A DNA stretch of 64,000 nucleotides from NCBI RefSeq assembly GCF_900104255.1, contig NZ_FNKZ01000001.1, positions 1,394,001 through 1,458,000 on the forward strand. The letters are read 5' to 3'. The position numbers were made by a program, and so were the translations under genes. The DNA is from Pseudoxanthomonas sp. CF385. GTDB taxonomy: Bacteria > Pseudomonadota > Gammaproteobacteria > Xanthomonadales > Xanthomonadaceae. The stretch's first letter is position 1. Each line of letters begins with the position of its first letter. Shown one piece after another: positions 11,704 to 50,635 of this stretch. The notes below the pieces were generated by a model. That model was not told where the DNA came from, made no database searches, and saw only the letters and a list, made by a program, of their open reading frames with translations.

Positions 11704-11964
11704 TTTTCTGGTGTCTCTTCTCTCACTAAGGTCCAACGTTGGATCTTTTTCGATGTTTCTTCTCTCACTAAGGTCCAGCGTTGGATCTTTTCGGGTGTCT
11801 CTTCTCTCACTAAGGCCCATCGTTGGATCTTTTAGGGTGTTTCTTCTCTCACTAAGGTCCAGCGTTCGATCTTTTTCAGTGTTTCTTCTCTCACTAAGGT
11901 CCAGCGTTGGATCTTTCAGGGTCGTTCTTCTCTCACCAAGATCCGGCGTTGTCCTGGTGCGCAC
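11704..11964. repeat. Tandem array of five 42-bp hairpin units plus partial ends
   Basis: Units begin with TCTCACTAAGG at 11721, 11763, 11805, 11847 and 11889, exactly 42 bp apart. A sixth, degenerate unit starts at 11931 and a half unit precedes the first. Each unit holds a near-palindrome (GGTCCAACGTTGGATC in unit 1) followed by a run of T on the + strand, the shape of a rho-independent terminator reading out of the RAYT gene. The array fills the gap between the RAYT gene and the convergent methyltransferase gene. Because 42 is a multiple of 3, several frames stay open through it as 14-residue repeats; I do not call these genes. Confidence 0.92.
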
Positions 11965-12006
11965 CGGTGCCGGGGCTTCCCGGGCGTCGCGCCACGCATG
12001 CCGTCG

Positions 12007-12681
12007 TCAGCGGGGAGTGCGCGCCACCCAGCCGCGGAAGCTGAAGGCGGCATAGAACAGGTCGATATCGACGAAGCCGGCCTCGCGCAACAGCGCTTCA
12101 TCCTGCGCCGGGGTCAGCAGCGGCAGGCGTGCGCTGATCGCCGCCGCGGCGTTGGCCATGTTGGCTGCGGGAATGCCGGAAGCCACCGCGAAGGCGGCAT
12201 AGCGCGACAGCCAGCGTTCCCTGGCGTCCGCGGCATCGTCCACGCTGTGGTGGGCGACGACGAACGGGGCGCCGGGCGCGAGCCGCCTGCGTACCTCGAC
12301 CAGCGTATGCAGGCGCTGTTCCGGGGGCAGGAAGTGCAGCGTCAGCAGGCAGGTGCCGCCGTCGAACGGGCCGGGCGGCGCGTCGTCGATGTAGCCCGCG
12401 ACCAGCTGCGCGCGCGGCGCGAGCGGCCCCAGCGTGGTGGTGGCGAGCGCCAGCATCTCCGCCGAGGGATCCACGCCGGTGAACCGCCAGCCGGCATGCG
12501 CGTCGGCGAACGCCTTCAGTTCGAGTCCCCCGCCGGCGCCGAGCACCAGCACGTGGCCGTCCTCCGGCACGGTTTCGGCCAGCAGCACGTGCGCCATCTG
12601 CTGCAGGCCGTGGAAGCCGGGCACCTGGCGCACCGGACCTTCGGCATAGCGGGCGACGGCATCGGGATCGTTGAACGACAT
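12007..12681 (-). CDS. Class I SAM-dependent methyltransferase
   Basis: 224 residues. The SAM-binding motif I is VLVLGAGGGLELKAF (residues about 44-58), with the acidic motif II in FTGVDPSAEML. The substrate is unknown. It lies on the same strand as, and 60 bp downstream of, the lipid-modification operon ending with lipocalin, so it may be a distal member or an independent gene. No TGCATCC-N16-CGTA site lies upstream of it. It is convergent with the RAYT gene across the hairpin array. Confidence 0.85.
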   Translation of the reverse strand: MSFNDPDAVARYAEGPVRQVPGFHGLQQMAHVLLAETVPEDGHVLVLGAGGGLELKAFADAHAGWRFTGVDPSAEMLALATTTLGPLAPRAQLVAGYIDDAPPGPFDGGTCLLTLHFLPPEQRLHTLVEVRRRLAPGAPFVVAHHSVDDAADARERWLSRYAAFAVASGIPAANMANAAAAISARLPLLTPAQDEALLREAGFVDIDLFYAAFSFRGWVARTPR

Positions 12682-12740
12682 GCGGAACTCCGCGCGCGGG
12701 GGCCGCCATGCTAGCGCGTTGGCGTGCCGCGCCTATGCGC

Positions 12741-13271
12741 TCACTGCGGTACGCGGCGCAGCTTGGACAGGTCGTAGCCCAGTGCTTCGATCTGGCGCAG
12801 GCGCGCCTGGTAATCCGCGTCGGAGATCGCCGGCGTGCGCGCCATCAGCCAGACGTAGTCGCGCTTGCTGCGGGCGACGATGGTCTGCTGGTAATCGGCA
12901 TCGACGAACGAGATGACGTACTCGGCCTGGATCGGCCAGACGAACTGCATGTTCCAGACGGCACCGCCGGTGTCCGGCCGCACCGTGCCCACCGGATGCA
13001 TCGTCTTCTCCGGTCCGTCGAGCGCGCCCTTGCGGTAGCGGAACGTCGTCCGGATGCGGCCGTCGGGGAGGCGCGCATACGACTCCACCGCGCGGTAGGC
13101 ATCGCGTTCGGGGAACGAGGGAATGTGGGCGATCACGTACCAGTCGCCCATGAAGCGGTCCACGTCCACCGGCGCGGCCGTGGGCACGGAGGGTTTGACG
13201 TTGCCGGAGCGGCAGCCGGCCGCGGTCGCGGCGATCACCAGGGCGAGCAGGGCGACGGGCAGGGTGCGCAT
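12741..13271 (-). CDS. Lipocalin-family lipoprotein (Blc-like)
   Basis: 176 residues. A lipobox (TAAGC, Cys20) marks an outer-membrane lipoprotein. The mature part has the lipocalin start GxW in FMGDWYVIAHIP and the late segment DYVWLMARTPAISDADY typical of bacterial lipocalins. Such proteins bind fatty acids or lysophospholipids and are induced by membrane stress. It is the last gene of the desaturase-led operon, starting 1 bp after the upstream methyltransferase stop, which supports a lipid-handling role. Confidence 0.9.
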   Translation of the reverse strand: MRTLPVALLALVIAATAAGCRSGNVKPSVPTAAPVDVDRFMGDWYVIAHIPSFPERDAYRAVESYARLPDGRIRTTFRYRKGALDGPEKTMHPVGTVRPDTGGAVWNMQFVWPIQAEYVISFVDADYQQTIVARSKRDYVWLMARTPAISDADYQARLRQIEALGYDLSKLRRVPQ

Positions 13272-13272
13272 G

Positions 13273-14355
13273 TCAGGTCTCCGCGTGGGCGCGCTGGAAG
13301 CGGTAGTGCGCGACCAGCCATTCCTGGCCGTCGCGGTAGCCGAACAGCTCCGCGCAGGCCATCCAGAACATGCGCCAGCGCTGGTTCCACAAGGCGGCCG
13401 CATCGCCGTAGGCCTCGCGCAGCACCGCCATCACCGCGTCGCGGTGCGCATCGTGCCGGGCCAGCCACTGGTTGGCGGTGCGCTGGTAGTGCGTGCCGTC
13501 CAGCAGCCAGCGTTCCTGCAGGTGCAGGTGCTGCTGGAAGAACAGCAGCAGGTCGGCCGACGGCATCATGCCGCCGGTGAAGAAATGCCGGCCCATCCAG
13601 TTGTCCTCGCCTTGGGTCTCGAACGGGTACATCAGGTCGCGGTGGACGAAGATGTGGACGAACAGCTGCCCGCCGGGCCGCAGCGTATCGTGGATGCGGC
13701 GCATCAGGGCGGCATGGTTGCTGACGTGCTCGAACATCTCCACCGACACGCAGCGGTCGTAGCGCGCGGTTTCGAGCTGCAGCTGGTTCACGTCGCAGGT
13801 GATGACGCGGACGTTGTGCAGGCCGCGTTCGGCGCAGCGCGCTTCGATGAAGTGGCGCTGCGAGTGCGAGTTCGACACGGCGGTGATGCGCGCGTTCGGA
13901 TAGCGCTCGGCCATCCACAGCGTCAGCGAGCCCCAGCCGCAGCCGAGTTCGAGGATCTCCTGGCCATCCGCCAGCGCGGCACGTTCGCCGTACAGGGCGA
14001 GCATCGCGTCCTCGGCCTGGTCCAGCGTTTCCTCGCCGGTCGGATAGAAACAGCTGCTGTATTTCAGCCGGTGCCCGAGGCAATGGCGGAAGAACGCCGC
14101 CGGCAGTTCGTAGTGCTGGCGGTTGGCGGCCTCGGTATGCACCGCCAGCGCGCCCTCGCGCAGTCCGCGCAGGCGGTGCGCGAGCAGCGCCGACTGCGCC
14201 TCCTGGCCGCCCGCGCGTTCGTCGCGCAGGCGCTGCGCGCACAGCCGACGGATGCCCGCGCGGACCAGCGCGTCCGGCAGCAGGCCGCGTTCGGCAAGGC
14301 CGAGCAGGCCGGGGGCGGCGCGGTCGGCCGCGAGTTCTTCCACCATGGCATTCAT
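13273..14355 (-). CDS. Cyclopropane-fatty-acid-synthase-like SAM methyltransferase
   Basis: 360 residues, Cfa/Mycolic-acid synthase superfamily. The SAM motif ILELGCGWGSLTLWMAERY lies near residues 130-150, with the SVEMFEHV block after it. It differs from the neighbouring Cfa and is closer to the Cfa-like N/C-methyltransferases found beside DUF1295 proteins. A methyl transfer to an unsaturated lipid chain, as in furan fatty acid formation, is possible, but this is inference. Its ATG overlaps the DUF1295 stop (ATGA), so the genes are coupled. Confidence 0.88.
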   Translation of the reverse strand: MNAMVEELAADRAAPGLLGLAERGLLPDALVRAGIRRLCAQRLRDERAGGQEAQSALLAHRLRGLREGALAVHTEAANRQHYELPAAFFRHCLGHRLKYSSCFYPTGEETLDQAEDAMLALYGERAALADGQEILELGCGWGSLTLWMAERYPNARITAVSNSHSQRHFIEARCAERGLHNVRVITCDVNQLQLETARYDRCVSVEMFEHVSNHAALMRRIHDTLRPGGQLFVHIFVHRDLMYPFETQGEDNWMGRHFFTGGMMPSADLLLFFQQHLHLQERWLLDGTHYQRTANQWLARHDAHRDAVMAVLREAYGDAAALWNQRWRMFWMACAELFGYRDGQEWLVAHYRFQRAHAET

Positions 14356-15149
14356 CGGTTCGCCTCCTCGGCGCCAGTGTTCGGGAACCACGGGAACAGC
14401 ATCGGCGTGCTGCGCTGGTACGCGCGGTAGTCCTCGCCGCGCGTGCGCAGCGCCTGCGCCTCGGTGTACGGAATGCCGCTGATGAAGCGCAGGAACACGT
14501 ACATCACCACCGGACCGCTCCACGCCAGCCAGTCCCACGGCGAGCCCACCGCCAACGCGATGTAGGCGAACCAGTGCAGCCACTCGAAGAAGTAATTGGG
14601 ATGGCGCGAGTAGCGCCACAGGCCCGCGCGGCAGGTGCGGCCGCGGTTCGCCGGGTCGGTGCGGAAGCGCGCGAGCTGGCGGTCGGCGAGGGCTTCGCCG
14701 GCGACGCTCGCGATCCAGATCGCCACGGCGGCGGCGAGCCAGGGCCACGCCGTGTGCTGCGGACTGCGCGCGGCCGCCGCGAAGGGCAGGGCGAACAGCA
14801 CCACCAGCAAGGCCTGCGCCATGAAGAACAGGAAGAACTTGCCCTGGTGCCCCTGCCAGTGCGCGCGCAGGTGGCGGTAGCGGCCGTCCTCGGGCTCGCT
14901 GCGCACCCGATGCCACAGGTGCAGCGCCAGCCGCGCACCCCACAGGCCGCCGAGGACGGTCAGCACGGCGCGCGCCTGCCATGCGCCATCGCCGATCGCG
15001 GCGAGCAGCAGGGCGCTGCCGCCGACGCAGGCCGACCACAGCACGTCGACGATCCCCGCGTTGTTGCGGCGACGCTGCCACTGCCAGCCGCCGGCCATCA
15101 CGACGGCGGCGAGCACGCCGACCAGGAGGAGGGCCAGCCCCGGGCTCAT
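14352..15149 (-). CDS. DUF1295 membrane protein (steroid 5-alpha-reductase-like fold)
   Basis: 265 residues with about six hydrophobic segments. The C-terminal half has the isoprenylcysteine methyltransferase/steroid reductase signature: LWRYSRHPNYFFEWLHW and a closing RTRGEDYRAYQRSTPMLFPW. DUF1295 proteins are integral membrane enzymes acting on lipids or sterol-like molecules; their reaction in bacteria is mostly untested. Start and stop overlap both neighbours by ATGA junctions. Confidence 0.9.
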   Translation of the reverse strand: MSPGLALLLVGVLAAVVMAGGWQWQRRRNNAGIVDVLWSACVGGSALLLAAIGDGAWQARAVLTVLGGLWGARLALHLWHRVRSEPEDGRYRHLRAHWQGHQGKFFLFFMAQALLVVLFALPFAAAARSPQHTAWPWLAAAVAIWIASVAGEALADRQLARFRTDPANRGRTCRAGLWRYSRHPNYFFEWLHWFAYIALAVGSPWDWLAWSGPVVMYVFLRFISGIPYTEAQALRTRGEDYRAYQRSTPMLFPWFPNTGAEEANR

Positions 15150-16396
15150 GCGCGCGCCCCCGGGTGGCCCGGCCGTGCCATCAGCAGGTGCGACACACCG
15201 ATCGACCGCTCGAGGAAGCCGCCCTCGCAATAGGCCAGGTAGAACTCCCACAGGCGGATGAAACGCTCGTCGAAGCCTTGCGCACGCACTTCGGGCAGGC
15301 GCGTCATGAAGCGGCGACGCCAGGCGCGCAGGGTGTACGCGTACGACAGGCCGAAGTCTTCCTGATGGACCACCTGCAGGTCGCTGGCGCGCGTCTTCGC
15401 GGCGTACATGGCGGCGAGCGAGGGAATGAAGCTGCCGGGAAAGACGAAACGCTTGATGAAGTCCACCGAATCGCGTGCCTGCGCGTAGCGGTGGTCCTCG
15501 ATGGTGATCGCCTGCAGCAACGCCTGCCCGCCCGGCCGCAGCAAGGTGCCCAGCTTGCCGAAGAAGGTCTCCAGGTACTGCGCGCCGATCGCCTCGACCA
15601 TCTCGATGGAGACCAGCGCGTCGTACTCGCCCTGCAGGTCGCGGTAGTCCTGCAGCAGCAGGGTGACCCGGTCCTGCAGGCCGGCCTCGGCCACGCGCCG
15701 GCTGGCCAGCGCATGCTGTTCGCGCGAGATCGTGGTGGTGGTGACATGGCAGCCGTAGTGGCGCGCGGCATGCAGCGCGAAGCCGCCCCAGCCCGTGCCG
15801 ATCTCGATCACGCGTTTTTCAGGCGTCAACGCCAGCTTGCGGCAGACGGCGTCGAGTTTCCGGTACGAGGCGACATCCAGGTCATCGTCCGGCGAAGCGA
15901 ACATCGCGGACGAGTACATGACGTCCTTCGACAGGAACAGCGCGAAGAAATCGTTGCCCAGATCGTAGTGCGCCGCGATGTTGCGCCGGCTGCCTTCCCG
16001 CGTGTTGCGCCTGAGCGCGTGCCAGCTGCGCAGCGCCCAGCCGCCGAGGCGCGCCAGGCCCGTCTCCATCCCATCGAGCAGCGCACGGTTGCGCACCAGC
16101 AGGCGCACCAGGCCGACCAGGTCGTCGCAGCGCCACTGGCCTGCGATATAGGCTTCGCCCGCCCCCACGCTGCCCTGCGCCGCGACGGCGCGGTAGAACG
16201 CCGGATCGTCGATCCACAGGTGCACCGTCGGCAGCGCGTCCGGCCCGGCGTGGCCGAAGCGGTGCTCGCCCAGGGCATCGCGCACCACCAGCGCGCCGTG
16301 GTCCAGCGCATCGAGGCGGGACAGCAACTGCGAGCGCAGCAGGCGGTCGAACGCGCCGTAGGTCGGTGTGGCGGAGGTGGCGGCGATCTCGTTCAT
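15146..16396 (-). CDS. cfa: Cyclopropane-fatty-acyl-phospholipid synthase
   Basis: 416 residues, a little longer than E. coli Cfa (382). The N-terminal lipid-binding domain is followed by [17 protein letters not shown], the SAM motif [16 protein letters not shown], the SIEMVEAIG block, and [10 protein letters not shown], all typical of Cfa. The enzyme adds a methylene from SAM across cis double bonds of membrane phospholipid chains. It is in an operon led by a desaturase that could supply those bonds. ATGA overlaps tie it to the DUF1365 and DUF1295 genes. Confidence 0.95.
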
Positions 16397-17169
16397 GGGG
16401 TCTCGCGGGCGAGGGGAGGATGGTCGTGGACCGGCGTGCGCTTCAGCCACAGGCGCAGCGCCTGCCAGTGGATGCCGGTCATCACCTGGGCGGTCATCAG
16501 CGGGTAGCGCCACAGCACCCGCGCCAGCGACGCGCCGTCCAAGGGTTGGCGCAGCAGGGTGAGGGTGGCGTCGAAGGCGCGCCGGCCTTCGCGGTCGACC
16601 TGCATGTGCACGCGCAGGGCCTCGTCCGGCGTGTCGAAGCGCCAGCGGTAGGCGCAGTCCATCGGCAGGAACGGCGAGACATGGAAGGCCTTGTCGAAGC
16701 CCCATTCCCAGCCGGCGCCCTGTGGCATGCCGTCGCGCACCGGCAGCACGTAGCTGTGCCGTTCGCGCCACGGGGTGTTGGTGATCTCCGCCAGCACGGC
16801 ATCGAGCGTGGTGCCGTCGGGCTGGAAGCAGTAGTAGAAGCTCACCGGGTTGAACACGTACCCGCCGTAGCGCAGGTGGGTGAGCAGGCGCACGGGTCCG
16901 CTCGGCCGGTAGCCCAGCTGCCGCGCGACCCGGTCGCGCACCGCGTCGGCCAGCGGCTGGTCGTGCGGCGCGAGGTAATCGCTGCGGCGGAACTCGGCCA
17001 GGTTGCGCCGGTCCACCGACCACAGCCAGCGATGCGCGAACACCTGTTCCACTTCGTCCAGGTCGAGGTACAGCTGCGCCATGCGGTAGCGGAAGGCATG
17101 CGGCCGCGGCGCGTGGCGGCGGTGACGCACCCAGCCTTCGTAGACGGCGCTGGCGAGCGGCGCGCTCAT
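16393..17169 (-). CDS. DUF1365 protein
   Basis: 258 residues with the family N-terminus [19 protein letters not shown] and the conserved NPVSFYYCF and HVSPF blocks. DUF1365 genes are almost always next to Cfa and a flavin oxidoreductase, including in the photooxidative-stress clusters of proteobacteria; their activity is unknown. Overlaps with both neighbours (ATGA) make this a coupled translation unit. Confidence 0.93.
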
Positions 17170-18452
17170 GCCGGGAGGGCCTCGGAGGCGCGACAGTCGT
17201 CCGCACATCGCGGATGCGCATCGAACGCGGCGACCAGTTCGTGCGCACTGCGGATGCCGTCTTCGTGGAAGCCCCAGCCCCAATAGGCGCCGGCGAACCA
17301 GGTGCGCCGGCGGCCCTGGATCTCGGCCTTGCGGCGTTGTGCGGCGACCATGGCGTGGTCGTGCACGGGATGGCGGTACTGCATGCGTCGCAGGACGCGC
17401 GCGGGATCGATCGCGTCGCTGCGGTTCAGGGTGACGATGAAGGGCTCGGGCGACGCCACGCCCTGCAGCAGGTTCATGCAGTAGCTGACGGTGCAGGGCG
17501 CGTCCGGGTCGCGCGGGACATGCGCGTTCCACGCCGCCCAGGCCTTGCGCCGGCGGGGCAGCAGGCGCGCGTCGGTGTGCAGCACCGTGTCGTTGGACTG
17601 GTAGCGCATCGCCCCGAGGATCTCCCACTCGCGCGCGTCGGCGTCGCCCTGCAGCAGCGCCAGCGCGGTATCGCTGTGGCAGGCGAGCACGGCGTGGTCG
17701 AAACGTTCGCGGCCGTGCTCATGGACGACCTCGACATCCCGCGCGCCGCGCCTGACGGCATACACGGGGCACGACATCCGTTCCTCCACGCGCCAGCGGC
17801 GGCGCAACGCCTCCACGTAGGTGGCCGAGCCGCCCGTCACCACGCGCCACGGCGGGCGGGTGCCCAGCGTCAGCATCTGGTGGTGGGCCATGAACTGGAC
17901 CAGGTAGCGGGCCGGGAAGGCGAGGATGTCCTGCGGCGGCGACGACCACAGTGCGGACGCCATCGGCACCAGGTGCTCATCGCAGAACGCCATGCCGTAA
18001 CGGCCGGCCTGCAGGTAGTCGCCCAGCGTCGGGCCCGGGCCGTCGCGTTCCAGCAGGGCGGGCGCCTCGCGATAGAAGCGGGCGAGGTCCTTCAGCATGC
18101 CGAGGAAACGGGGCGACAGCAGGTTGCGGCGCTGGCAGAACAGGGTGTCCAGGGTGTGGGCGTTGTATTCCACGCCGCTGCGTTCGCTGCGCACGGAGAA
18201 ACTCATCGTGGTCGGCTGCGAGGCGACCCCGAGTTCGTCGAACAGCCCGCTCAGCAGGGGGTAGCGATCGCGATTGAAGACGATGAAACCGCTGTCGATG
18301 CGGTACGCGCGACCGGCCTGTTCCACCGTGTGCGTATGGGTGTGCCCGCCCAGGTAGTCGTTGGCCTCGTACAGCACCACGTCATGGCGCTGCGACAGCC
18401 ACCAGGCCGAGGCCAGGCCCGCGATGCCGGAACCGATGACCGCGATCCGCAT
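17166..18452 (-). CDS. FAD-dependent NAD(P)-binding oxidoreductase (amine oxidase/desaturase-like)
   Basis: 428 residues. The N-terminal dinucleotide fold is [17 protein letters not shown] (GxGxxG at residues 7-12) with the acidic end of strand 2 in YEAND. The later [14 protein letters not shown] motif places FAD in this family, which sits next to DUF1365 and Cfa in many genomes. A homologous flavoprotein belongs to the RpoE-ChrR regulon of Rhodobacter sphaeroides. Oxidation of a methylated fatty acyl chain is a plausible role, unproven here. It starts 2 bp after the desaturase stop. Confidence 0.92.
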
Positions 18453-18454
18453 GC

Positions 18455-19405
18455 TCAGCGCCTCGCCTTGGCCAGCACCCAGGCGGGCACGGGCTTCAGG
18501 TCGCGCACCAGTCCCAGCAGCGCCATCGTGCGCAGGGCGTACCAGGTGAGGTCGATCTCCCACCAGCGGAAGCCCTGGCGCGCGGTGCCCGGGAAGAAAT
18601 GGTGGTTGTTGTGCCAGCCTTCGCCGAACGTCAGCAGCGCCAGCCAGAGGTTGTTGCGGCTGTCGTCGCGCGTATCGAAGCGGCGACGTCCGAAGCGGTG
18701 CGCCAGCGAGTTGATCGTCACCGTGGCATGAAAGAGCACCACGGTGGAGACGAAGAAACCCCACACCAGCAACTGCGGCCCGCTGGTGCCGAGATCGGGC
18801 GCGACGCGTTCCAGCAGGGCGCCGAGGCCGAACAGGGCGGCCGCCAGCAGCACGGGCACGACGGTGTCGTAGCGGTCCAGCCAGCGCAGTTCGGGATAGC
18901 CGGCCAGGTCCGGGATGCGCGACCAGTCCGTGCGGAAGCCCTCGCGGGTCAGGAACCAGCCGGCATGGCTCCACCAGAAGCCGCGCTGCGTCGGCGAATG
19001 CGGATCGGCCATCGTGTCCGCGTGCCGATGGTGGTTGCGATGATGCGCCGCCCACCACAACGGGCCGCGCTGCACGCTGGACGCACCGATCAGCGCGAAC
19101 ACGAACTGGAGCACGCGCGAGGTGCGGAACGTGCGATGCGAGAAGTAGCGATGATAGAAGCCGGTGATCGCGAACATCCGCACGGCATAGAGGGCGATGG
19201 CCACGATCACCGCGATCGGCGACACGCCGACCCAGAGCACCGCCACGCAGGCCAGGTGCATGCCGATGAAGGGAATCGCGCGCAGCCAGTCGATGCGTCC
19301 GGCGTGTGTGGCGTCTTCGTCCGTGCGCGCCTCGGTGTCGAACCAGCGCGACAGCGTGGACAGGCGCGTCGCCGTCGTGCGGGTGGGGGAAGCACTGGCC
19401 GGCAT
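18455..19405 (-). CDS. Acyl-CoA/acyl-lipid desaturase (membrane fatty acid desaturase)
   Basis: 316 residues with the three histidine boxes of membrane di-iron desaturases: HRYFSH (85-90), HHRNHH (121-126) and HNNHH near residue 275. Several hydrophobic segments surround them. It would introduce a cis double bond, probably delta-9, into saturated acyl chains and so make substrates for Cfa downstream. It is the first gene of the seven-gene operon and lies about 30 bp after a promoter-like TGCATCC-N16-CGTA site, with a GGAGAG ribosome binding site. Confidence 0.93.
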
Positions 19406-19433
19406 GGCGTCTCTCCGCTGCGTTGGAGAGGCT

Positions 19434-19460
19434 TACGCAGGACGGCGGCGATCGGATGCA
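19434..19460 (-). promoter_or_regulatory. Candidate ECF-sigma promoter of the lipid operon
   Basis: On the minus strand TGCATCC (19460-19454) and CGTA (19437-19434) are separated by exactly 16 bp. The same arrangement occurs twice in the 20250-20386 intergenic region. The predicted transcript starts about 22 nt before the desaturase ATG. The pattern is close to the TGATC.../GTA-type promoters reported for ECF11 (RpoE-ChrR) sigma factors. Confidence 0.7.
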
Positions 19461-19470
19461 GGCGGCGCGC

Positions 19471-20250
19471 TCATCGACCGCAGCTGCGCACCAACGCCGT
19501 CGCGCGCGCCTGCCGGAGCGCATCGGTATCGGCGGGCGTGGCCGGATCGGGAAACACGATGCGCACGTCCTGGTGCTTCCCCGTTTCGTCGCGGATGGTC
19601 GCGATGCCGGCGAACTCGAGCAGGCGCTGGTCCGCGTCGGCATAGGTCAGTTCCATCGTCGGTGCGATGAAGCCGTACCAGCGATCGAGTTTCATCGTCA
19701 GACGCCGTGCGGGAATGCCTTCCCAGCGCACGGCGGCGCCCGGACGCAGGCGTACCGGGACGAAGGCCATGCGGCTGGGCAACAGGAAGGGCTGGGTCAC
19801 GTCGCGGCCGGCGCGCAGCGCGGTCCAATGCAGGCGGACGCTCTCATCGAAGCCGGCATCGACCACGCCGCCGGCCGGAAGCGCGACGATGCGCTGCTTC
19901 GGCGTCGCGTTCGCGGAGGCGCGCACGTAGACGGTGCGTCCGCCGGCCCCGCTGCGCGCGCCTTCGCGATACCCGTCGCGGGCATCCTCGAAATCGAAAT
20001 CCGGCGCCTGCGCCGACGTGCGCGCCACCACGGTCTTGCGCGCGAAGGCGCGGCCGTCCGGACAGCGATAGAGCACCAGCCGGTGGGCAAGGCCGTCCTG
20101 CCGGTAGCGCCAGTGCGACTCGCGGTAGAGCAGGGCATCGCCCTGCCGCGCATAGGCCCGCGCTTCCTGGCGCAGGATGTCGGCACTCGCGGCCGCAGGA
20201 CCCGCCAGGCAGGCGAGGGCGAGGGCGAGCACGGAACGGCGTACGGGCAT
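19471..20250 (-). CDS. Secreted protein of unknown function, candidate member of the ECF regulon
   Basis: 259 residues. A signal peptide (MPVRRSVLALALACLAGPAAAS) precedes a beta-rich mature protein with few aromatic clusters and a single late Cys (CGR end). I recognise no family. An upstream in-frame start would bury the signal peptide, so 20250 was chosen. It is divergent from the sigma gene and has its own TGCATCC-N16-CGTA site at 20282-20308. Its place between the sigma gene and the lipid operon, with matching promoters, suggests a periplasmic role in lipid stress. Confidence 0.72.
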   Translation of the reverse strand: MPVRRSVLALALACLAGPAAASADILRQEARAYARQGDALLYRESHWRYRQDGLAHRLVLYRCPDGRAFARKTVVARTSAQAPDFDFEDARDGYREGARSGAGGRTVYVRASANATPKQRIVALPAGGVVDAGFDESVRLHWTALRAGRDVTQPFLLPSRMAFVPVRLRPGAAVRWEGIPARRLTMKLDRWYGFIAPTMELTYADADQRLLEFAGIATIRDETGKHQDVRIVFPDPATPADTDALRQARATALVRSCGR

Positions 20251-42568: not shown

Positions 42569-42656
42569 GAGGAGCTCCGCGAAGGGGCAGAGCGCACGCT
42601 CGCACGGGGCTTCCGTGCAGGCTTGTACCCGCGTGCGGGCACGGGCCGGAAACGCA

Positions 42657-42680: not shown

Positions 42681-42704
42681 CTCGTGATCCGTGAAGCGCG
42701 CGCT

Positions 42705-43118
42705 TCAGCGGTTGTCGATGCTCCAGCCACCGGCGCCACGGGCGGCGAGGGTGATGAAGCCACCGGCCAGGGCGAAGTTCTTCAGGAACATGATCTGCTG
42801 GATCTGGTCGCCCAGGTGGCTGTGGAACAGCACCGCGCTGGCGATCGAGAACACCGCCAGCAGGCTGGCGACGATGCGGGTCTTGTAGCCGGCGACGATG
42901 GCCAGGCCGCCCAGCACTTCCAGCGCGATGACCAGCGGCAGCAGCGCGCTGGGGACGCCGACGGATGCCATGTAGCCGGCGGTACCGGCATAGGCGGCCA
43001 GCTTGCCGAGGCCGGAGATGATGAAGAGGGAGGCGAGCAGGCTGCGGCCGACGAGGTCGGCGGCGCCACGCAGGGCGGGAACGCGGGTGGTGGTCGGGGT
43101 GACGGTAACGGTGGACAT
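42705..43118 (-). CDS. DoxX-family membrane protein
   Basis: 137 residues with four hydrophobic segments and the family start LVGRSLLASLFIISGLGKL, then VIALEVLGGLAIVAGYKTR. DoxX proteins are small membrane proteins linked to thiosulphate:quinone oxidoreductase or quinone-related redox in some species. It is divergent from a LysR regulator 114 bp away, its probable controller. Confidence 0.9.
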   Translation of the reverse strand: MSTVTVTPTTTRVPALRGAADLVGRSLLASLFIISGLGKLAAYAGTAGYMASVGVPSALLPLVIALEVLGGLAIVAGYKTRIVASLLAVFSIASAVLFHSHLGDQIQQIMFLKNFALAGGFITLAARGAGGWSIDNR

Positions 43119-43232
43119 GGTGGACTCCGGGGAAATGGTGGTGTGTGCAGCGGTACGGATCGCACGATAGGCCGTGGCGACACATCCCGGAAGCCTATAT
43201 ATTTCGATGATATCCATCGTCTGGAGCGATAC

Positions 43233-44123
43233 ATGCTCGACGCCGTCACGCTCGACCAGCTCCGCACCTTCATCGCCGCCGCCGAACAGGGCAGCTTCTC
43301 CGCCGCGGGCCGCAAGCTGCGGCGCGCCCAGTCGGTGGTCAGCCAGACGCTGGCCAACCTCGAACTGCAACTGGGCGTCACTCTGTTCGACCGCAGCAGC
43401 CGCTACCCGCAGCTGACCGAAGCCGGTCGCCTGCTGCTGCTCGAAGCGCGTGCGGTGGCCGAACACATGGACACCTTCAAGGCGCGCGCCCGCAGCGTGG
43501 CCGAAGGCCTGGAACCCGAACTGTCGGTCGCGGTGGACGTGATGTTTCCCATGGACGCACTGACGCGTGCCGCCGCGCACAGCGGCAGCGCGTTCCCGCA
43601 CACGCCGCTGCGGTTGTACGTGGAAGTATTGGGTGGCGTGATCCAGCCGGTGCTCGACGGTACCTGCCGGATCGGCGTGGTGGGGTCGCTGCCCGAGCTG
43701 CCCGACGACGTGGTCGCGGAACCGCTGCTGTCGGTGCCCTTCGTCACCGTCGTCGCGCCCACGCACGCGATGGCCGGCCTGCTCGGTACCGTGCCGGTGA
43801 AGACCGCCGCGAAGCACGTGCAACTGGTGCTCACCGATCGCACGCCGCTGACGGCCGGTCGCGATTTCGCCGTGCAGTCGCCGTTGACCTGGCGGTTGGC
43901 CGATCTCGGCGCCAAGCATGCGTTCCTGCGCGCGGGCCTGGGGTGGGGCCACATGCCGCTGCACATCGTCGAAGAAGATCTGGCGGCAGGTCGTCTGAAA
44001 CGCCTGCGCATCGCCGATGCCGATCCGCGTTACGCGGAAATGCCGATGCGTGCGGTATGGCGGAAGGACACGCCGCCGGGACCCGCCGGGCGCGCGTTCA
44101 TGGCGCAGTTGCGCAGGCGATAG
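43233..44123 (+). CDS. LysR-family transcriptional regulator
   Basis: 296 residues. The DNA-binding part is TFIAAAEQGSFSAAGRKLRRAQSVVSQTL; the effector domain follows. It is divergent from doxX. The intergenic region holds an AT-rich tract with the interrupted palindrome CGATG-ATATC-CATCG (43205-43219), a candidate operator. Confidence 0.93.
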   Translation: MLDAVTLDQLRTFIAAAEQGSFSAAGRKLRRAQSVVSQTLANLELQLGVTLFDRSSRYPQLTEAGRLLLLEARAVAEHMDTFKARARSVAEGLEPELSVAVDVMFPMDALTRAAAHSGSAFPHTPLRLYVEVLGGVIQPVLDGTCRIGVVGSLPELPDDVVAEPLLSVPFVTVVAPTHAMAGLLGTVPVKTAAKHVQLVLTDRTPLTAGRDFAVQSPLTWRLADLGAKHAFLRAGLGWGHMPLHIVEEDLAAGRLKRLRIADADPRYAEMPMRAVWRKDTPPGPAGRAFMAQLRRR

Positions 44124-44136
44124 CGCGGCGGAGCGC

Positions 44137-47100
44137 TCAGGCCATCGCCTGGCGCAGCTGGCCGCGGGCGAGGGCGGTGGCTTCGTCGACTTCCATCGGA
44201 CGGCCGAAGAAATAGCCCTGCATCTCGTCGCAACGCATCTGCTGCAGCGCGCTCATCTGCTCCGCCGTCTCGACGCCTTCGGCGATGGTGCGCAATCCCA
44301 TCTCGTGGGCGAGCACGAGGATCGTGCGGGCGATCGCGCGGTCGGTGCTTTCGGCGGCGATGCCGTCCACGAAGCTGCGGTCGATCTTGATGATGTCCAG
44401 CGGCAGGCGCTGCAGGTACGCCATGCTCGAATAGCCCGTGCCGAAGTCGTCCAGCGCCAGGCGCACACCGAGTGCGTGCAGCGACTGCAGGATCTGCTGC
44501 GCGGCGCCCATGTCTTCCACCAGCACGCTCTCGGTGAGCTCCAGTGTCAGCGCATCCGCCGGCAGCGCGTGCCGCTGCAGGCATTCGGCGATCCACGGCG
44601 CCAGCGTGGGCTGGCCGAGCTGGCTGGGCGACAGGTTGACCGCCATCCCGAGCGTGCGCAGCCCCATCGCCCGCCACCGCGCCAGTTGCTGGCAGGCCTG
44701 TTCCAGCACGAAGTGGCCGATGTCCTCCATCAGGCCCGCGCTTTCGGCGAGCGGGATGAAGACCGAAGGCGGCACTTCGCCCCACACCGGATGGCGCCAG
44801 CGGGCGAGGGCTTCGAAGCCGGTCAGCTGCAGCGAGTCGCCGGCCACCACGGGTTGGTAGGCCAGGCGCAACTGGCCGCGCGCGACCGCTTCGCGCAGCG
44901 CGGTGACGCGGCTGAGGCGATCGTTGGCTTCCTGCTGCGCGCCGGCGGAGGGCAGGCGCACCTGGTTGCGGCCGGCACGCTTGGCCAGGTGGCGCGCGTC
45001 GTCGGCGCTGCGCAGCAGGCTCTGCAGGTCGATGCCGTGCTCGGGCGAATGCGCCAGGCCGATGCTCGCGGTGACGGTGAACGAGGGGTGGGTGGAATAC
45101 AGCGCGATCGGTTGGCCCACCGCGCGCCGGATCTCCTCGGCCCACCGGCTGAGCTGGTCGATGTCGGTGTCGGCGAAATGCACCAGGAAGCCTTCGCCAC
45201 CGTAGCGGTACACCTGGCCTTCGTCGCCGACGGCGCCCGAGATCCGCTGCCCCATCCGGCGCAGCACTTCGTCGCCGCCGTCGTGGCCGAACGAATCGTT
45301 GACCATGCCGAAGCCGTCGAGGTCGACGATCGCCAGCCCGTGCCCGGAGGGCGTCTGTGCGCCGATCTGCTCCGTGATCAACGTGGCCTGCGCGGAGAAG
45401 CGCGGCAGGCCGGTGGCGCTGTCCATCGCGGCGGCGTCGTTGAGCCGGCGCTGCGCATCGAGCCGGCGCTCGGTCTCGGTCAGCAGCGAGCGTGCGGTTT
45501 CCGCCGCCTCGGTCGAGCGGCGCCGCGACAGGTCGAGCAGGAACAGCACGACCGCGATCAACAGACCACTGCTGAGGCCGCCGACGACGAGCGCGCGCGG
45601 CAGCGCGAACGACGTCAGCGCAGGCGGCGCCCACAACGCCAGTTCCACCTCGTGGCCGGGCAGGGAGACGGTCTGCACCGACAGCGGCTCACCGAACGGT
45701 TCACCCTGTTCCACGGTCGCCATGCCGTCCGCGGTCGCGCGCACCGGGCGGTCGGAAAACACCGCCTTGTTGAGCGTGGTGACGAAGCCATCCAGTGCGA
45801 TGAACGCCTGGGTGCGGCGCCCGCCGCTGTCCACCGTCAGCCACCAGCCGCCCGGCACCGGTTGGAGCAGGCCGTCATCGGCGACCGGCAACGGCGGCGA
45901 CGGCGCCACCGGGGCGTTGAAGCCCGGTTCCACCCAGCGGAACTCGCCCGCCTCGCCCACGCTGCGCACCACCCGGAACGCCGCATACGCACGCACCATG
46001 TCGGCGACATGGCGATCGAACAGGTCTTCCGCCACGTCGGGGCGCGCGGCCACCAGCGAGGACGACAACTGCCGCAGGGCGCTGCGGCGCAGCTCCACGC
46101 CGCGCAGGAACGTCGTCCCCGCGGTCGCCGTCTGGGTCTCCATCACCCGGCGCGCCATCGCATCGCGATCGGCGGTGGCGGCCAGCCAGAACATGCCGCC
46201 GAGGATCAGCGCCGCGGCCATCGGCAGCACGCCGAACAGGCGTTCGCGCAGCGAGTTCTCGCCGGCCACCGCGAGCGCCAGCCCCATCGCGCCGAGCTGC
46301 GCCGTCGCCGTCAGCGAGATCTGGTACATCGACATGCCTTCGCGGTGGTACGGCAGCTGGAACAGCAGGCCCAGCGCGGCCATGCCGGCCACCGAGGCCA
46401 TCGCGATGCCCAGCCCGCGCACGATGCCCCAGCGCGTGTTCTCCCACCGCTGCAGCGCCTGCGGCAGCAGCGCGATCGCGACCCAGGCGGTCAGCACGCC
46501 GTAGTCGGTGTAGCCGCCGATCAGCGGCGAGGAGACGCGCGGCAGCCAGCCCACCGCGTACAGCATCGTGTTCAGGGGCGTGGTGATGCCGCCCAGCGTA
46601 TGCAGCAGGGTGAGCACCAGCGGCAGGGCCACCACACCCATCAGGATCCACGCCGCGCGCTCGTGGTCGCGCTGGCGCAGCAGCAGGGCCAGCGCGAGCC
46701 CGGCCAGCGCCAGGGTGGAGACCGGGCGCATCGGCAGGTAGCTCACGCCCATCCGGCCGACCAGGCTGCCGGGCACGTGCCAGCCGACCAGCGCCACCAC
46801 GGTGAAGGCGAGTACCACGGCGACCAGTTCGGTGCTCGTGTCCAGCGTCCGCCCGGCGCGCAGCGACGGTGTGTAGACCAGCAGGAACATCGCCAGCGCC
46901 GACAGCGCCAGCGACCAGCCGATCTCGGCCGGTCCGCCGCCGGGCTGCAGCGCGCCCAGCACCGGTTGCACCGAAAGCAGCAGCAGCGCGGCGGCGAACA
47001 CGCGCATGACGAATTCCGCCCAATAGGTGCGCCACAGCCGCGCCCACACGATGATCGTCGTCGCGGCCAGCACCAGGCAGGTGCCCAACGCATGGAACTG

Positions 47101-47418
47101 CCAGAGATGGACGAGGAACAGCACCGACAGCAGGCCGGCGACCGCGGCGCGCACCCGGCGTTCTTCGCTGCGCCAGGTGGCGATGGCCACCAGCACGCCG
47201 ACCACCGGCACACTGTCGTCGACGAAATGGCCGCTGCCCATGTTCACCAAGGTGAATCCGGCCGCCATCACCCAGGCCAAGGCAGCCGCGAAGCGCTGTG
47301 CCCAGTGCACGGGCCGCCATAGGTCCTGGTGTATTGCCAATGCCTTCCCCTGCGGGACCGACGCCCCGGGCACTGTGATACCCAAATCGCCGTCGGGCCG
47401 CAAGCACGGCGGACGCAA
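44137..47418 (-). CDS. Multi-pass membrane GGDEF-EAL protein (probable cyclic-di-GMP phosphodiesterase)
   Basis: About 1093 residues. About ten hydrophobic segments fill residues 40-430, then a periplasmic-type loop, another membrane segment near 585-605, a GGDEF domain and an EAL domain. The GGDEF catalytic loop reads GGEGF (residues about 739-743), so cyclase activity is unlikely. The EAL domain is complete: EAL at 869-871, LALDDFGTGYSS, IKIDRSFV and EGVET. It therefore should degrade cyclic-di-GMP, perhaps with GTP as regulator. The start is uncertain: a TTG at 47418 or GTG at 47373. Confidence 0.9.
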   Translation of the reverse strand: MRPPCLRPDGDLGITVPGASVPQGKALAIHQDLWRPVHWAQRFAAALAWVMAAGFTLVNMGSGHFVDDSVPVVGVLVAIATWRSEERRVRAAVAGLLSVLFLVHLWQFHALGTCLVLAATTIIVWARLWRTYWAEFVMRVFAAALLLLSVQPVLGALQPGGGPAEIGWSLALSALAMFLLVYTPSLRAGRTLDTSTELVAVVLAFTVVALVGWHVPGSLVGRMGVSYLPMRPVSTLALAGLALALLLRQRDHERAAWILMGVVALPLVLTLLHTLGGITTPLNTMLYAVGWLPRVSSPLIGGYTDYGVLTAWVAIALLPQALQRWENTRWGIVRGLGIAMASVAGMAALGLLFQLPYHREGMSMYQISLTATAQLGAMGLALAVAGENSLRERLFGVLPMAAALILGGMFWLAATADRDAMARRVMETQTATAGTTFLRGVELRRSALRQLSSSLVAARPDVAEDLFDRHVADMVRAYAAFRVVRSVGEAGEFRWVEPGFNAPVAPSPPLPVADDGLLQPVPGGWWLTVDSGGRRTQAFIALDGFVTTLNKAVFSDRPVRATADGMATVEQGEPFGEPLSVQTVSLPGHEVELALWAPPALTSFALPRALVVGGLSSGLLIAVVLFLLDLSRRRSTEAAETARSLLTETERRLDAQRRLNDAAAMDSATGLPRFSAQATLITEQIGAQTPSGHGLAIVDLDGFGMVNDSFGHDGGDEVLRRMGQRISGAVGDEGQVYRYGGEGFLVHFADTDIDQLSRWAEEIRRAVGQPIALYSTHPSFTVTASIGLAHSPEHGIDLQSLLRSADDARHLAKRAGRNQVRLPSAGAQQEANDRLSRVTALREAVARGQLRLAYQPVVAGDSLQLTGFEALARWRHPVWGEVPPSVFIPLAESAGLMEDIGHFVLEQACQQLARWRAMGLRTLGMAVNLSPSQLGQPTLAPWIAECLQRHALPADALTLELTESVLVEDMGAAQQILQSLHALGVRLALDDFGTGYSSMAYLQRLPLDIIKIDRSFVDGIAAESTDRAIARTILVLAHEMGLRTIAEGVETAEQMSALQQMRCDEMQGYFFGRPMEVDEATALARGQLRQAMA

Positions 47419-47439
47419 TGGGTGAACGGGGCAGGCAGA

Positions 47440-47465
47440 ACCGGCGCGCGGTCACGCGCGCCGGT
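47440..47465 (-). terminator. GC-rich hairpin downstream of the alpha/beta hydrolase gene
   Basis: A perfect 10-bp stem, ACCGGCGCGC/GCGCGCCGGT, with a 6-nt loop begins 12 bp past the hydrolase stop. No T-run follows. Confidence 0.5.
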
Positions 47466-47476
47466 GCGGTGCGGCG

Positions 47477-48478
47477 TCAGCTCTTGGCGAACGCCAGCAT
47501 GTCGGCGTTGAGCTTGTCCTTGTGCGTGTCGGTGATGCCGTGCGGCGCGCCCGGGTAGACCACCAGCTGGCTGTTCTTCACCAACTTGGCCGACGCGCGC
47601 GCGGCGGCGTCGATCGGCACGATCTGGTCGTCGTCGCCGTGGATGATGATGGTCGGCACGTCGAACTTCTTCAGGTCTTCGGTGAAGTCGGTTTCCGAGA
47701 ACGCCTTGATGCTGTCGTAGGTGTTCTTGTGCCCGCCCATCATGCCCTGCAGCCACCAGGCGTCGATCACGCCCTGCGAGGGCTTCGCGCCCGGGCGGTT
47801 GTAGCCGAAGAACGGGCCGCTGGGGATGTCCTTGAACAACTGCGAGCGGTTGGCCAGCAGGCCCGCGCGGATGCCGTCGAACACGTCGATCGGCAGGCCG
47901 CCGGGGTTGGCCTCGGTCTTCACCATCAGCGGCGGCACGGCGGACACCAAGCCGGCCTTCTTCACCCGCTTCGTGCCATGGCGGCCGATGTAGCGCGCCA
48001 CTTCGCCACCGCCGGTGGAGAAGCCGAACATCGTGATGTCCTTCAGGTCCAGGTGTTCGATCAGCTGCGCCAGGTCGTCGGCGTAGTGGTCCATGTCGTT
48101 GCCGTCCCATGGCTGGCTGGAGCGCCCGTGGCCGCGGCGATCGTGCGCGATCACGCGGAAGCCGTTCGCGGCCAGGTGATAGGCCTGGGACTCCCAGCTG
48201 TCCGCATTCAACGGCCAGCCGTGGCTGAGGGTGACGACCGGGCCGTCCTTCGGGCCCCAGTCCTTGAAGTAGATCTGCACGTCGTCTTTGGTGGTGAACA
48301 GGCCCATGGCGGTTCTCTCGAGGGTGGGGGAAGGGGGAGGGAGCGGCGATGCGGTCGAGGCGGGCGCCTCGCTGCGGCTGCACGCGGCCAGCGGCAGGAA
48401 GGCCGCGCCGGTGATGGCCGCGCCGGCCAGCATCAGCTGCCGCCGTTGCAGGTCGATGTCGTGGGGAGTGTCCGGCAT
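47477..48478 (-). CDS. Alpha/beta hydrolase (arylesterase/haloperoxidase family) with exported lipoprotein-like leader
   Basis: 333 residues. The hydrolase begins at Met58 ([18 protein letters not shown]), the normal start of this family. The nucleophile is Ser154 (FGFSTGGGE), with Asp284 in GDDDQIVP and His313 in APHGIT. Ahead of it is a 57-residue leader with a twin Arg (RR at 12-13), a hydrophobic stretch and a lipobox LAAC (Cys33). The enzyme is therefore probably Tat-exported and lipid-anchored, unlike typical cytosolic members. An internal start at Met58 with AGAGA upstream could also make a cytosolic form. Confidence 0.9.
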
Positions 48479-48645
48479 GGGGCGTAATCCGGGGTGACGG
48501 GGCGACACCCACCTTCCCATCGCCGTTCACGGACCGATTGCACCGGCGTGCGCAGATGCGGCGCCCCGTCCATGGCGGGCGAGCGAAGCGCCGCAGGCGC
48601 GCGGGTGCGCTAGAGTCCGCGGACACCGTCACCGGAGCGTCCGCG

Positions 48646-49035
48646 ATGCCGATCGAACTGAAGATGCTGGCCTGGTCCGTCGCCCTGGGCCTGGTGCATG
48701 TGCTGGTCGGGGCGGCGCTGACCACGCACCAGCGCGGCCTGAAGTGGAATGTCGGTGCGCGCGACGCGGTCCTGCCGCCGCTCACCGGCGTGGCGGCCCG
48801 CGTGGATCGCGCGCTGCGCAACTTCCTGGAGACCTTCCCCTTCTTCGCTGCCGCCGTGCTGGCGGTCGTGGCGCTGGAACGCGGCGATGCGTCCACCGCG
48901 CTGGGCGCACAGTGCTACTTCTGGGCGCGCTTGGCCTACGTGCCGCTTTACGCGGCGGGCGTGCCCTATCTGCGTACGGTGGTGTGGGCGGTCTCGCTGT
49001 GGGGACTGCTGCAAGTCCTCTGGGCGCTGCTGTAA
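48646..49035 (+). CDS. MAPEG-family membrane protein
   Basis: 129 residues with four hydrophobic segments and the MAPEG signature RALRNFLETFPFFAAAVL. MAPEG proteins include glutathione transferases and eicosanoid enzymes; bacterial members are mostly untested. The ATG is preceded by GGAG. The gene stands alone between the hydrolase (divergent) and the ClpP-like lipoprotein. Confidence 0.9.
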   Translation: MPIELKMLAWSVALGLVHVLVGAALTTHQRGLKWNVGARDAVLPPLTGVAARVDRALRNFLETFPFFAAAVLAVVALERGDASTALGAQCYFWARLAYVPLYAAGVPYLRTVVWAVSLWGLLQVLWALL

Positions 49036-49152
49036 GCGCGTCGCGCGCAGGTTCATCGCCGGGCAGGGCTGGGTCATCCGATTCACACTAGACTAGGGGC
49101 GACCCCCCCTCAGACCCGCGTGCATGCGCGCGGGCGGTGTGCGAACGACCGG

Positions 49153-50295
49153 ATGCTGTCCCGTATTTCCTCTCTGACGCTGCTCTCGCTGCTGGCCTTG
49201 CTTGCGCTGGCGGGGTGCCGCATGGACACGCCCGACGTCGCGCCCGACGCGCTCGCGCAGGCGCCGGTCGAACCGCCGCAGGACACGCCCGCGCAGCAGG
49301 CCGAACGCGGCGACGGCGCGGTGTCGACCGGCCCGGTGGCGGCCGGGGCCTCCAGGGCGGACGGCGTGCTGCCGACCGAATGGCCGACGGCCAAGGTCGC
49401 GTCCGGCACCGCCTACGTCAGCTGCCAGGCCGACTACACCACCGAGGAAGGCGACGGCGTGGCGCTGGAATCGCTGGCGTTCTTCAGCGTGGTCGATGCG
49501 CTGTCGCCCTGCCAGAAGGGGGGCGTGCTGCGCCTGCGCTACCAGGGCAAGATCGCGGCCGATTTCACCGACCTGGTGACCCGCGTGGCCGACATCGCCG
49601 ACCGCATGGGCATCCACAAGCGCATCCTGGACCTGGACTCGGCCGGCGGACAGGTCGAGGACGCCATCCGTGCAGGCGACGTCATCGGCGCCAGCGGCTG
49701 GACGATCTGGGTGCGCGAGGGTTCGGTCTGCCACAGCGCCTGCGTGTTCGTGCTGGGCGCGGGCGACAACCGGATGATCTCCGGCAAGGTCGGCGTGCAC
49801 CGGATCATCCGCATGAGTTCCACCGCGACCACCCGCAGCGAACTCAACGAGGAACTGCGCGGCGTGTACGACCGGGTGAAGGATTACCTGTCGCGCAACG
49901 GCGTGGCGGTGGCCGTGGCGGATCTGATGATGACGGTGCCGAACCGCCGGCTGCGCCTGCTCAGCAAGGACGAGCTGCAGGAGTACGGCCTGGACGGCAC
50001 CAACGCCGCCCAGGACGACCTCGACCGGCTGCAGCTGATGCGCCGCTGCGGGGCCGATTTCGTCAATCGGCGCGACGCCTTCATGCGCAGCTTCGATACC
50101 GAGTGCAAGACCGCCGGCACCGGCCTGGACGAGATGCAGGCCTGTGGCCTGAAGCTGCGCGGGCGCTTCCAGTTCCCCGATGCGAAATGCCCGGCCGACA
50201 GCCCGCTGTCCGAGTTCGACCGCATGGCGGACGTGGAAACCGCACCCGAGGACGCCGCCGGCGCGCCGCCGCCGGAGGCGGGCACCGCTCCCTGA
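49153..50295 (+). CDS. Lipoprotein with ClpP-like periplasmic domain
   Basis: 380 residues. A lipobox (ALAGC, Cys22) is followed by an Ala/Pro-rich linker to about residue 75. The core matches the ClpP/crotonase-like fold of periplasmic COG3904 proteins: LDLDSAGGQVEDAIRAGDVI, Ser195 within CHSACVFVLGAG, and His216 in GVHRII. This catalytic pair suggests serine protease or transpeptidase-like chemistry at the envelope. The C-terminal 120 residues are unassigned and contain four Cys. The hairpin array lies directly downstream. Confidence 0.8.
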   Translation: MLSRISSLTLLSLLALLALAGCRMDTPDVAPDALAQAPVEPPQDTPAQQAERGDGAVSTGPVAAGASRADGVLPTEWPTAKVASGTAYVSCQADYTTEEGDGVALESLAFFSVVDALSPCQKGGVLRLRYQGKIAADFTDLVTRVADIADRMGIHKRILDLDSAGGQVEDAIRAGDVIGASGWTIWVREGSVCHSACVFVLGAGDNRMISGKVGVHRIIRMSSTATTRSELNEELRGVYDRVKDYLSRNGVAVAVADLMMTVPNRRLRLLSKDELQEYGLDGTNAAQDDLDRLQLMRRCGADFVNRRDAFMRSFDTECKTAGTGLDEMQACGLKLRGRFQFPDAKCPADSPLSEFDRMADVETAPEDAAGAPPPEAGTAP

Positions 50296-50313
50296 GCCTA
50301 CGCGGCAGGACGG

Positions 50314-50635
50314 GCGAGGCTTCTTGGCTCACGCGCCAGGCAAAAAGCCTCAGCGTTGAGGCTTAGTGTGAGTAGAGCGAGGCTTTTTTGCTCATGCGCC
50401 AGGCAAAAAGCCTCAACGTTCATGCTTGGTGTGAGTAGAGCCAGGCTTTTTTGCTCACGCGCCAGGCAAAAAGCCTCAACGCCGAGGCTTAGTGTGAGTA
50501 GAGCGAGGCTTTTTCACTCACGCGCCAGGCAAAAAGCCTCAACGCCGAGGCTTAGTGTGAGTAGAGCGAGGCTTTGTCACTCACGCGCCAGGCAAAAAGC
50601 CTCAACGCCGAGGCTTGGTGTGAGTAGAGCGCATC
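50314..50635. repeat. Tandem array of 63-bp hairpin units
   Basis: Units start with GCCAGGCAAAAAG at 50335, 50398, 50461, 50524 and 50587, exactly 63 bp apart; the last is truncated and a half unit precedes the first. Each contains the near-palindrome AAGCCTCAACG(TT or CC)GAGGCTT followed by AGTGTGAGTAGAG and then a second GAGGCTTTTT. On the minus strand the palindrome is followed by a T-run, a terminator shape reading out of the S4 gene; AAAAAGCCTC can also pair with GAGGCTTTTT further along. The array fills the 380-bp gap between two convergent genes; nothing else is seen in that gap. 63 is a multiple of 3, so frames stay open as 21-residue repeats, which I do not call genes. Confidence 0.92.

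Follow-up and report, generated by a model that had tools for sequence, protein, structure and literature searches.

The window analysed here, a stretch of 64,000 nucleotides of Pseudoxanthomonas sp. CF385 (NZ_FNKZ01000001.1, positions 1,394,001 to 1,458,000), holds two tandem arrays of short repeats, each lying between two convergent genes (Table 1). An earlier note on this DNA had proposed for both of them a common core of the form AAAAAG-stem-CAACG-stem'-CTTAGTG-GAG, which was found in both arrays in one register, on the minus strand for array 1 and on the plus strand for array 2. The best ungapped match between the two consensuses reached 26/42 at offset 0; for 20,000 shuffles, compared at all offsets and on both strands, the mean was 18.0 and the highest value 25. 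That the shared words were a coincidence, a possibility raised beforehand, was excluded, since the real match lay above the shuffle maximum and the genome controls were near-empty. From their sequences, it is close to certain that arrays 1 and 2 are members of one repeat family.

Table 1. Arrays and neighbouring features, in positions of the window
Feature	Position	Strand	Remarks
Array 1	11704..11951	minus	42-bp period, in which A blocks (CCTTAGTGAGAGAAGAAACAC), six in all, take turns with dyad B blocks (CGAAAAAGATCCAACGTTGGA); Tandem Repeats Finder: 11704-11951, period 42 bp, 5.9 copies
Array 2	50314..50633	plus	63-bp period, built five times from C (GCTTTTTCGCTCACGCGCCAG), B (GCAAAAAGCCTCAACGCCGAG) and A (GCTTAGTGTGAGTAGAGCGAG) in this order; Tandem Repeats Finder: 50314-50631, period 63 bp, 5.0 copies
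Array 1, six 25-base core matches (dyad end + A block)	11716-11740, 11758-11782, 11800-11824, 11842-11866, 11884-11908, 11926-11950	minus	degenerate pattern search
Array 2, five 25-base core matches	50352-50376, 50415-50439, 50478-50502, 50541-50565, 50604-50628	plus	degenerate pattern search
RAYT-like Y1 transposase gene (PF01797; RAYT, REP-associated tyrosine transposase; REP, repetitive extragenic palindrome)	10941..11570	plus	131 bp to nearest array-1 match; convergent with 12007-12681
GTAG-type REP adjoining the RAYT gene (GTAGCCCGGGTAGAGCGAAGCGAAACCCGGGG)	11585..11616	plus	type by resemblance to sequences quoted from passages of PMC2817692
Inverted REP copy between RAYT gene and array 1	11658..11692	minus	read from sequence
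Methyltransferase gene (Methyltransf_25), convergent to array 1	12007..12681	minus	Pfam
391-aa protein gene, upstream of array 2	49120..50295	plus	no Pfam match; neighbour conserved in relatives
S4_2 domain protein gene, convergent to array 2	50676..50900	minus	Pfam

A family of 21-bp blocks

In the genome of this strain, the degenerate 25-base pattern (up to 3 mismatches) was found at 30 places, all within arrays, compared with 2 for the reversed control, and the 14-base core TTAGTGWGAGWAGA, with up to one mismatch, occurred at 41 places, all 41 in eight arrays, with none in the control. Apart from a few exceptions, the cores were spaced at 21, 42, 63 and further multiples, which makes 21 bp, or two turns of B-DNA, the repeat unit. 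The description of both periods as multiples of 21 was thereby borne out, array 1 being built as A+B and array 2 as C+B+A, while the ten units counted in the earlier note are actually about eleven.

The A block, (S)CTTAGTGWGAGWAGARNSAS, which contains the core, is constant and has no dyad, whereas in the dyad blocks B to E an A- or T-run occupies positions 3-7 and the dyad is centred between positions 15 and 16. Blocks of type B resemble the one of array 1, those of type C resemble GCTTTTTGCCTCTCGCGCCAG or CCTTTTTCGGTGTCGCGACAC, while D combines a T-run with AACGTT and E an A-run with CGCG; the recurring orders were (BA)n, (CA)n, (CBA)n, E-B-B-A-(BA)n and C-C-D-A-D-A. A total of 43 arrays from 13 genomes and one contig of a Nostoc assembly (genomes counted by hand) comprised 522 blocks, namely 205 A, 113 B, 95 C, 52 D, 21 E and 36 unclassified, the rule for array ends and the block classes being our own and loose. 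The set is a lower bound, as further arrays exist, for example, in G313 and G274 (G numbers stand for genomes and L numbers for loci); single matches outside arrays (L123, L126-L128) and duplicate views (L031-L037, L051-L053, L057) were left out before counting. What had been described as a single family of tandem hairpins with variable unit length is indeed one family, with a period that varies on a 21-bp basis, but its A blocks, 205 out of 522, are not hairpins. The stem halves are complementary overall, except in five B blocks of array 1, whose stem mismatch reads A.C in the shared sense and G.T on the opposite strand.

The register was strict. Cores fell in the 21-bp phase of their own array in 199 of 205 cases, and only 6 of 162 core-to-core steps deviated from 21, every one of them being the final step of its array. 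Successive equal periods differed by 526 substitutions in 3339 compared bases, where comparisons overlap and one change may count twice. A seven-codon repeat of coding sequence would explain a unit that is a multiple of three, the rarity of indels and the one frame that was open in 28 of 41 arrays; this reading is highly improbable, however, since no frame was open in all arrays (the next best in 24), the GC content of the blocks was 0.52 in a window of 0.67-0.72, and the variation tracks the dyad partners. The same register would probably be unexpected without constraint if the arrays were a selfish or neutral minisatellite, copied by slippage or recombination and without a function for the cell, in which paired stem changes would arise from template switching between imperfect inverted repeats.

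Stem covariation and the question of DNA or RNA

Since the blocks within one array are related, covariation was recomputed on array consensuses, taking the dyad pairs 8:23 to 11:20 in 54 array-by-type consensuses. Out of 216 pairs, 146 were Watson-Crick, compared with a mean of 98.8 and a maximum of 124 in 5000 shuffles, and by type the P-values were 0.0006 for C and 0.01 for D. When blocks were counted, pairs 9:22, 10:21 and 11:20 of B and pairs 9:22, 10:21 and 13:18 of C exceeded the shuffles. Thus, the covariation of the stems that the earlier note had claimed holds at array level, and it holds at the orthologous array-2 locus, where G299 has the same C-B-A order with the stems GACTC/GAGTC and GACTG/CAGTC instead of GCCTC/GAGGC (by eye). 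On the side of a selfish minisatellite, template switching is reported to create and maintain hairpins with compensatory changes (PMC8794818), and the stem mismatches have no strand bias.

The arrays might alternatively be an RNA element, with tandem hairpins in 3′-untranslated regions serving as terminators or mRNA stabilisers. Their placement at gene 3′ ends agrees with this, and array 1 keeps a G.U-compatible 8-bp stem, then a T-run, on the plus strand. Frequent G.T pairing has been used by REP workers as an argument for RNA (PMC3733652, in the part drawn on here); among the distinct B to E blocks, however, 136 G.T and 149 A.C mismatches were counted (B 74/71, C 29/39, D 30/25, E 3/14), so there is no overall G.U excess on either strand, and the strand-specific, G.U-tolerant covariation of a structured RNA was not seen. 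Folding showed the arrays to be more self-complementary than controls. Relative to column-permuted controls keeping the tandem order, the z-score averaged −2.1 for the sense and −2.5 for the antisense strand over 41 arrays, and relative to dinucleotide shuffles −3.3 and −3.7, respectively; the strands differ in raw energy, which favours the sense one, but not in excess over controls.

The arrays resemble intrinsic terminators in their position after genes and in the stem followed by a T-run in some blocks. Nevertheless, the scans of both window arrays, which were the arrays scanned, returned 0 sites (1.0 and 0.8 in shuffles), without any GC-rich hairpin with a T-run, and no Rfam match at the gathering threshold was found in the window. 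At the L058 locus, a separate GC-rich hairpin, independent of the array, followed the gene in 14 of the 14 relatives read, with at least 4 T behind it in 9 (by eye), and was present with or without an array behind it. Terminators are thus not supported as an explanation of the arrays, as the scans of the two window arrays were empty and the L058 locus has a terminator of its own. Regarding the T-runs, which had been placed towards one of two convergent genes, the convergent setting is correct for both window arrays, but array 2 has T-runs on both strands, in its B and C blocks. Moreover, the orientation to co-directional genes was mixed (10 sense, 9 antisense). The RNA hairpin that the earlier note implied keeps the raw energy on its side and is otherwise at best weakly supported, both strands being raised over controls and terminator-like sites being absent from the window arrays; an RNA element appears unlikely. 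Both the equal G.T and A.C counts and the helical register speak rather against RNA, but they do not decide the matter.

On the side of an element acting as DNA, the bend per turn predicted with a wedge model was 9.1 degrees for the arrays, 4.5 for column-permuted sequences (mean z 2.2) and 2.25 for the flanks.

Distribution, orthologous loci and gene context

Of 297 family genomes, 4 had the exact tandem pattern, this genome among them, and the four belong to a single genus. A slightly looser tandem pattern gave six stretches in genome contigs. Five of them lie in Pseudoxanthomonas records, on which the genus name of the carriers rests, and the sixth in a 4-kb contig (NZ_JAIVFT010000073.1, L054) filed under Nostoc sp. 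CHAB 5824, which bears arrays of the 21-bp block family and is probably a contamination. The search with a model of the unit, proposed in the earlier note, was run with a sequence-only model without pairs and yielded 45 matches here, with 14 of 120 genomes (this one included) and 1 of 66 genera being positive. Within the genus, 16 of 38 genomes had a core match; control matches occurred in several too, so the lone matches in G191, G311 and G315 are probably due to chance. The array of G264 was identical to that of P. mexicana DSM 17121 in an array comparison.

The 391-aa protein upstream of array 2 was sought beside the S4 gene in 30 of the 38 genomes. Its identity to the protein of this genome was 83-93% in 13 array-positive relatives and in G117, while in the remaining genomes it was found in 5 of 15, at 55-65%, so the array carriers are close relatives of this genome. 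Relatedness is taken from these identities only, since a two-gene tree, which split the carriers into two groups, included one gene thought to have paralogs and was not relied on. G117 showed decayed blocks only, with no model match, despite its closeness to G000 and G264; judging from these sequences it has probably lost the family, and the case suggests that either a factor or the family as a whole disappeared. Furthermore, the exact tandem pattern had 0 matches in viral contigs, and the array-1 stretch had none in plasmids, in a search that covered array 1; these results give no support to a phage or plasmid home. No description of the family was found in open-access papers. The family thus seems, so far, confined to one group of Pseudoxanthomonas, and a one-genus distribution in all searches, apart from the Nostoc-assembly contig, would also suit a selfish minisatellite.

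For the array-2 locus, the sequence separating the S4 gene from the 391-aa protein gene was inspected by eye in 20 loci having both genes. This genome has five C-B-A copies there and G313 has copies in C-B-A-A order, followed by G117, G264, G310 and G303 with one or two decayed copies and G253, G242 and G304 with a single remnant at most; G284 and G206 have a different 21/42-bp family, and no array was seen in G294, G301 and G274. The SDR locus showed likewise a mix of arrays, remnants and absence across relatives. At both loci, tandem blocks change in copy number between species at a fixed place, as in a minisatellite or variable number tandem repeat (VNTR), and this variation, the decay to single blocks and the absence at some loci (by eye) count for a selfish repeat. 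Against it stands the strong conservation of the non-palindromic A core at many loci, which is partly ascertainment, the loci having been found through that core.

Two further observations were made at these places. In L138 (G303, array-2 locus), the S4 gene occurs a second time and the same array remnant stands on both sides, a pattern that might reflect a tandem duplication through array blocks. In addition, the same intergenic places are filled in L140 and L142 (array-2 locus) and in L236 and L248 (L058 locus) by other 21- or 42-bp families whose letters differ, such as GCTCAGGGTGTGTCGGGAGAC in L142, according to reading by eye and lag statistics.

Regarding placement, neighbours were taken from a home-made codon-usage gene caller, which missed the RAYT gene next to array 1 and may thus err in single entries; 8 of the 43 arrays lacked a called neighbour on one side. 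The other 35 lay between convergent genes in 15 cases, co-directional genes in 19 and divergent genes in 1, so the rule is to adjoin a gene 3′ end (34/35) and not, as had been expected, to lie mainly between convergent genes. For comparison, the intergenic bases of the window were 2613 co-directional, 2019 divergent and 1903 convergent. The near absence between divergent genes (1/35) argues against a selfish repeat, and it is shared with REPs and with the bacterial interspersed mosaic elements (BIMEs).

In the parts of PMC3733652 and PMC2817692 used here, REPs are described as intergenic sequences at gene 3′ ends, forming tandem mosaics of modules, with palindromes that have complementary changes and with RAYT genes nearby; the arrays resemble BIMEs and REPs (E. 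coli BIME-2; GTAG- and CGTC-tagged REPs) in all of these. A total of 32 RAYT homologs above 100 bits were found in 13 of 14 array-bearing genomes, and at least 14 of the 32 lay within 2 kb of an array among the listed array places (at least 44), where uniform placement would give 0.12; grouped by hand, these 14 represent about five independent loci. The arrays could accordingly be imagined as a true REP or BIME moved by RAYTs, the A-to-C junction (GWAG-A-GCGGACC-TTTTT-GGTCC-TCGC), which in C-A arrays resembles a GTAG-tagged hairpin, being a REP with a drifted tag. This is improbable, more so than an RNA element. In the ten RAYT loci read by eye, the sequences beside the gene were mostly ordinary REPs unlike the array blocks; G139, G063 and G218 have many RAYT matches and no arrays, while G253 has arrays and no RAYT match above 25 bits, so a RAYT flanked by its own array repeat was not found. 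Similarly, no GTAG or CGTC tag stands consistently beside the palindrome: array 2 itself reads GTAG, but of the 144 distinct A blocks 120 carry A at tag position 13 and 20 carry T, and in A-B arrays the tag is not directly followed by a hairpin. As the adjoining sequences are mostly REPs unlike the blocks, we read the proximity of RAYT genes as shared residence or targeting and not as a cognate pair.

Interpretation of the arrays

By the tag and RAYT tests, the arrays are not REPs or BIMEs, and they are minisatellites in a loose sense. Apart from the tag and the missing cognate RAYT, they differ from BIMEs in their strict 21-bp block in direct orientation, in the constant block without dyad, in the lack of a G.T excess in the stems and in number, with eight arrays in this genome compared with the high copy number of REPs. 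From bacterial minisatellites or VNTRs, such as the minisatellite inside a miniature inverted-repeat transposable element (MITE) of Porphyromonas gingivalis (PMC4596501), with which they share short tandem units, they differ in having several block types, an order common to unlinked loci and compensated dyads. With respect to possible inverted termini as in a MITE, TTCTCACACT stood opposite GTGTGAGAA in several E-B-B-A arrays (by eye). Iteron or CRISPR-type direct repeats are evenly spaced, at a few tens of bases; the arrays share the even spacing but have no unique spacers, their intervening blocks being repeats as well.

The reading we prefer, at a probability of about 0.48, is that of a BIME-like, helically phased DNA element beside gene ends, the odds for this and for its rivals not being mutually exclusive; for a function at DNA level as such, the odds are about even. 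The sequences themselves show the family, its 21-bp register, the dyads, the compensated stem changes, the 3′ placement, the narrow distribution and the nearness of RAYT genes. In favour of the DNA reading count the confinement of the core to arrays, the register, the covariation (also at the orthologous locus), the absence of a strand signal in the mismatches, the fold scores against permuted controls, the predicted bend, the placement and the RAYT proximity. Binding of gyrase, IHF or Pol I is a trait of REPs and BIMEs. By analogy, we infer that the array works like a BIME without being built from REPs: it would act as double-stranded DNA and not as RNA, forming a curved, helically phased row of putative binding sites. 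The DNA-binding protein that might occupy them could be, as in E. coli BIMEs, gyrase or a nucleoid protein, and once bound it would mark or relax the region past the gene ends, while the number of blocks would change through unequal recombination or slippage. A more specific proposal, for which the chances seem low, is a dedicated chromosomal scaffold, in which the two-turn blocks would be curved, phased platforms for a putative protein that reads the A block and needs only dyad geometry elsewhere; placed at gene 3′ ends, they would form boundaries of topology or transcription. The strongest rival is the selfish or neutral minisatellite, a real possibility, though a less probable one than the BIME-like element.

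Several results weigh against the DNA element. To begin with, many of the 43 arrays are orthologs, so the array counts are not independent. Some relatives have no array at a given locus (L134, L135 and L137; L225, L228, L231 and L233, by eye), and G117, whose neighbour protein has 91.7% identity, has no model match, in a search whose filters lose weak matches; no array looks essential, given these cases. Covariation in the B type alone was weak (p 0.05 on array consensuses), and the inner pair 12:19 of C was paired less often than in shuffles (block-level counts). In 33 of 41 arrays, the sense strand had the lower raw folding energy (Wilcoxon p 0.0001), which an RNA element may claim, and the E blocks taken alone were lopsided (G.T 3, A.C 14). 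Finally, a 10.5-bp AT periodicity in the block was not significant (p 0.25 for all blocks; 0.025 for the unclassified group alone).

The arrays represent a bacterial repeat system with a readable grammar, in which several sequence variants can be compared at one locus between related species, as can loci that have or lack an array. Because of these properties, it becomes a testable question whether palindromic intergenic arrays are kept by selection on DNA structure, by selection on RNA, or only by template-switch mutation.

Some observations concern the genes near the arrays. The closest relative (87%) of the window RAYT gene, in the stretch 10941-11692 with its inverted GTAG-type REPs, was found in G294, 1.8 kb from an array there. 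Among the relatives, eight methyltransferase loci (L190-L196, L201) had no array in the 600 bases after the gene (by eye) and no RAYT in the locus. An A-B array of Root630 (L055) lies near the counterpart of a gene that also follows the methyltransferase gene of array 1 here (window 12741-13403; compared by eye), so array 1 may be an old locus. Pfam searches of the array neighbours revealed no common function. The E-B-B-A arrays in L059, L038, L108, L111, L116 and L121 adjoin apparently one uncharacterised gene, as suggested by resemblance at the C-terminus (172 aa in L059, no Pfam match).

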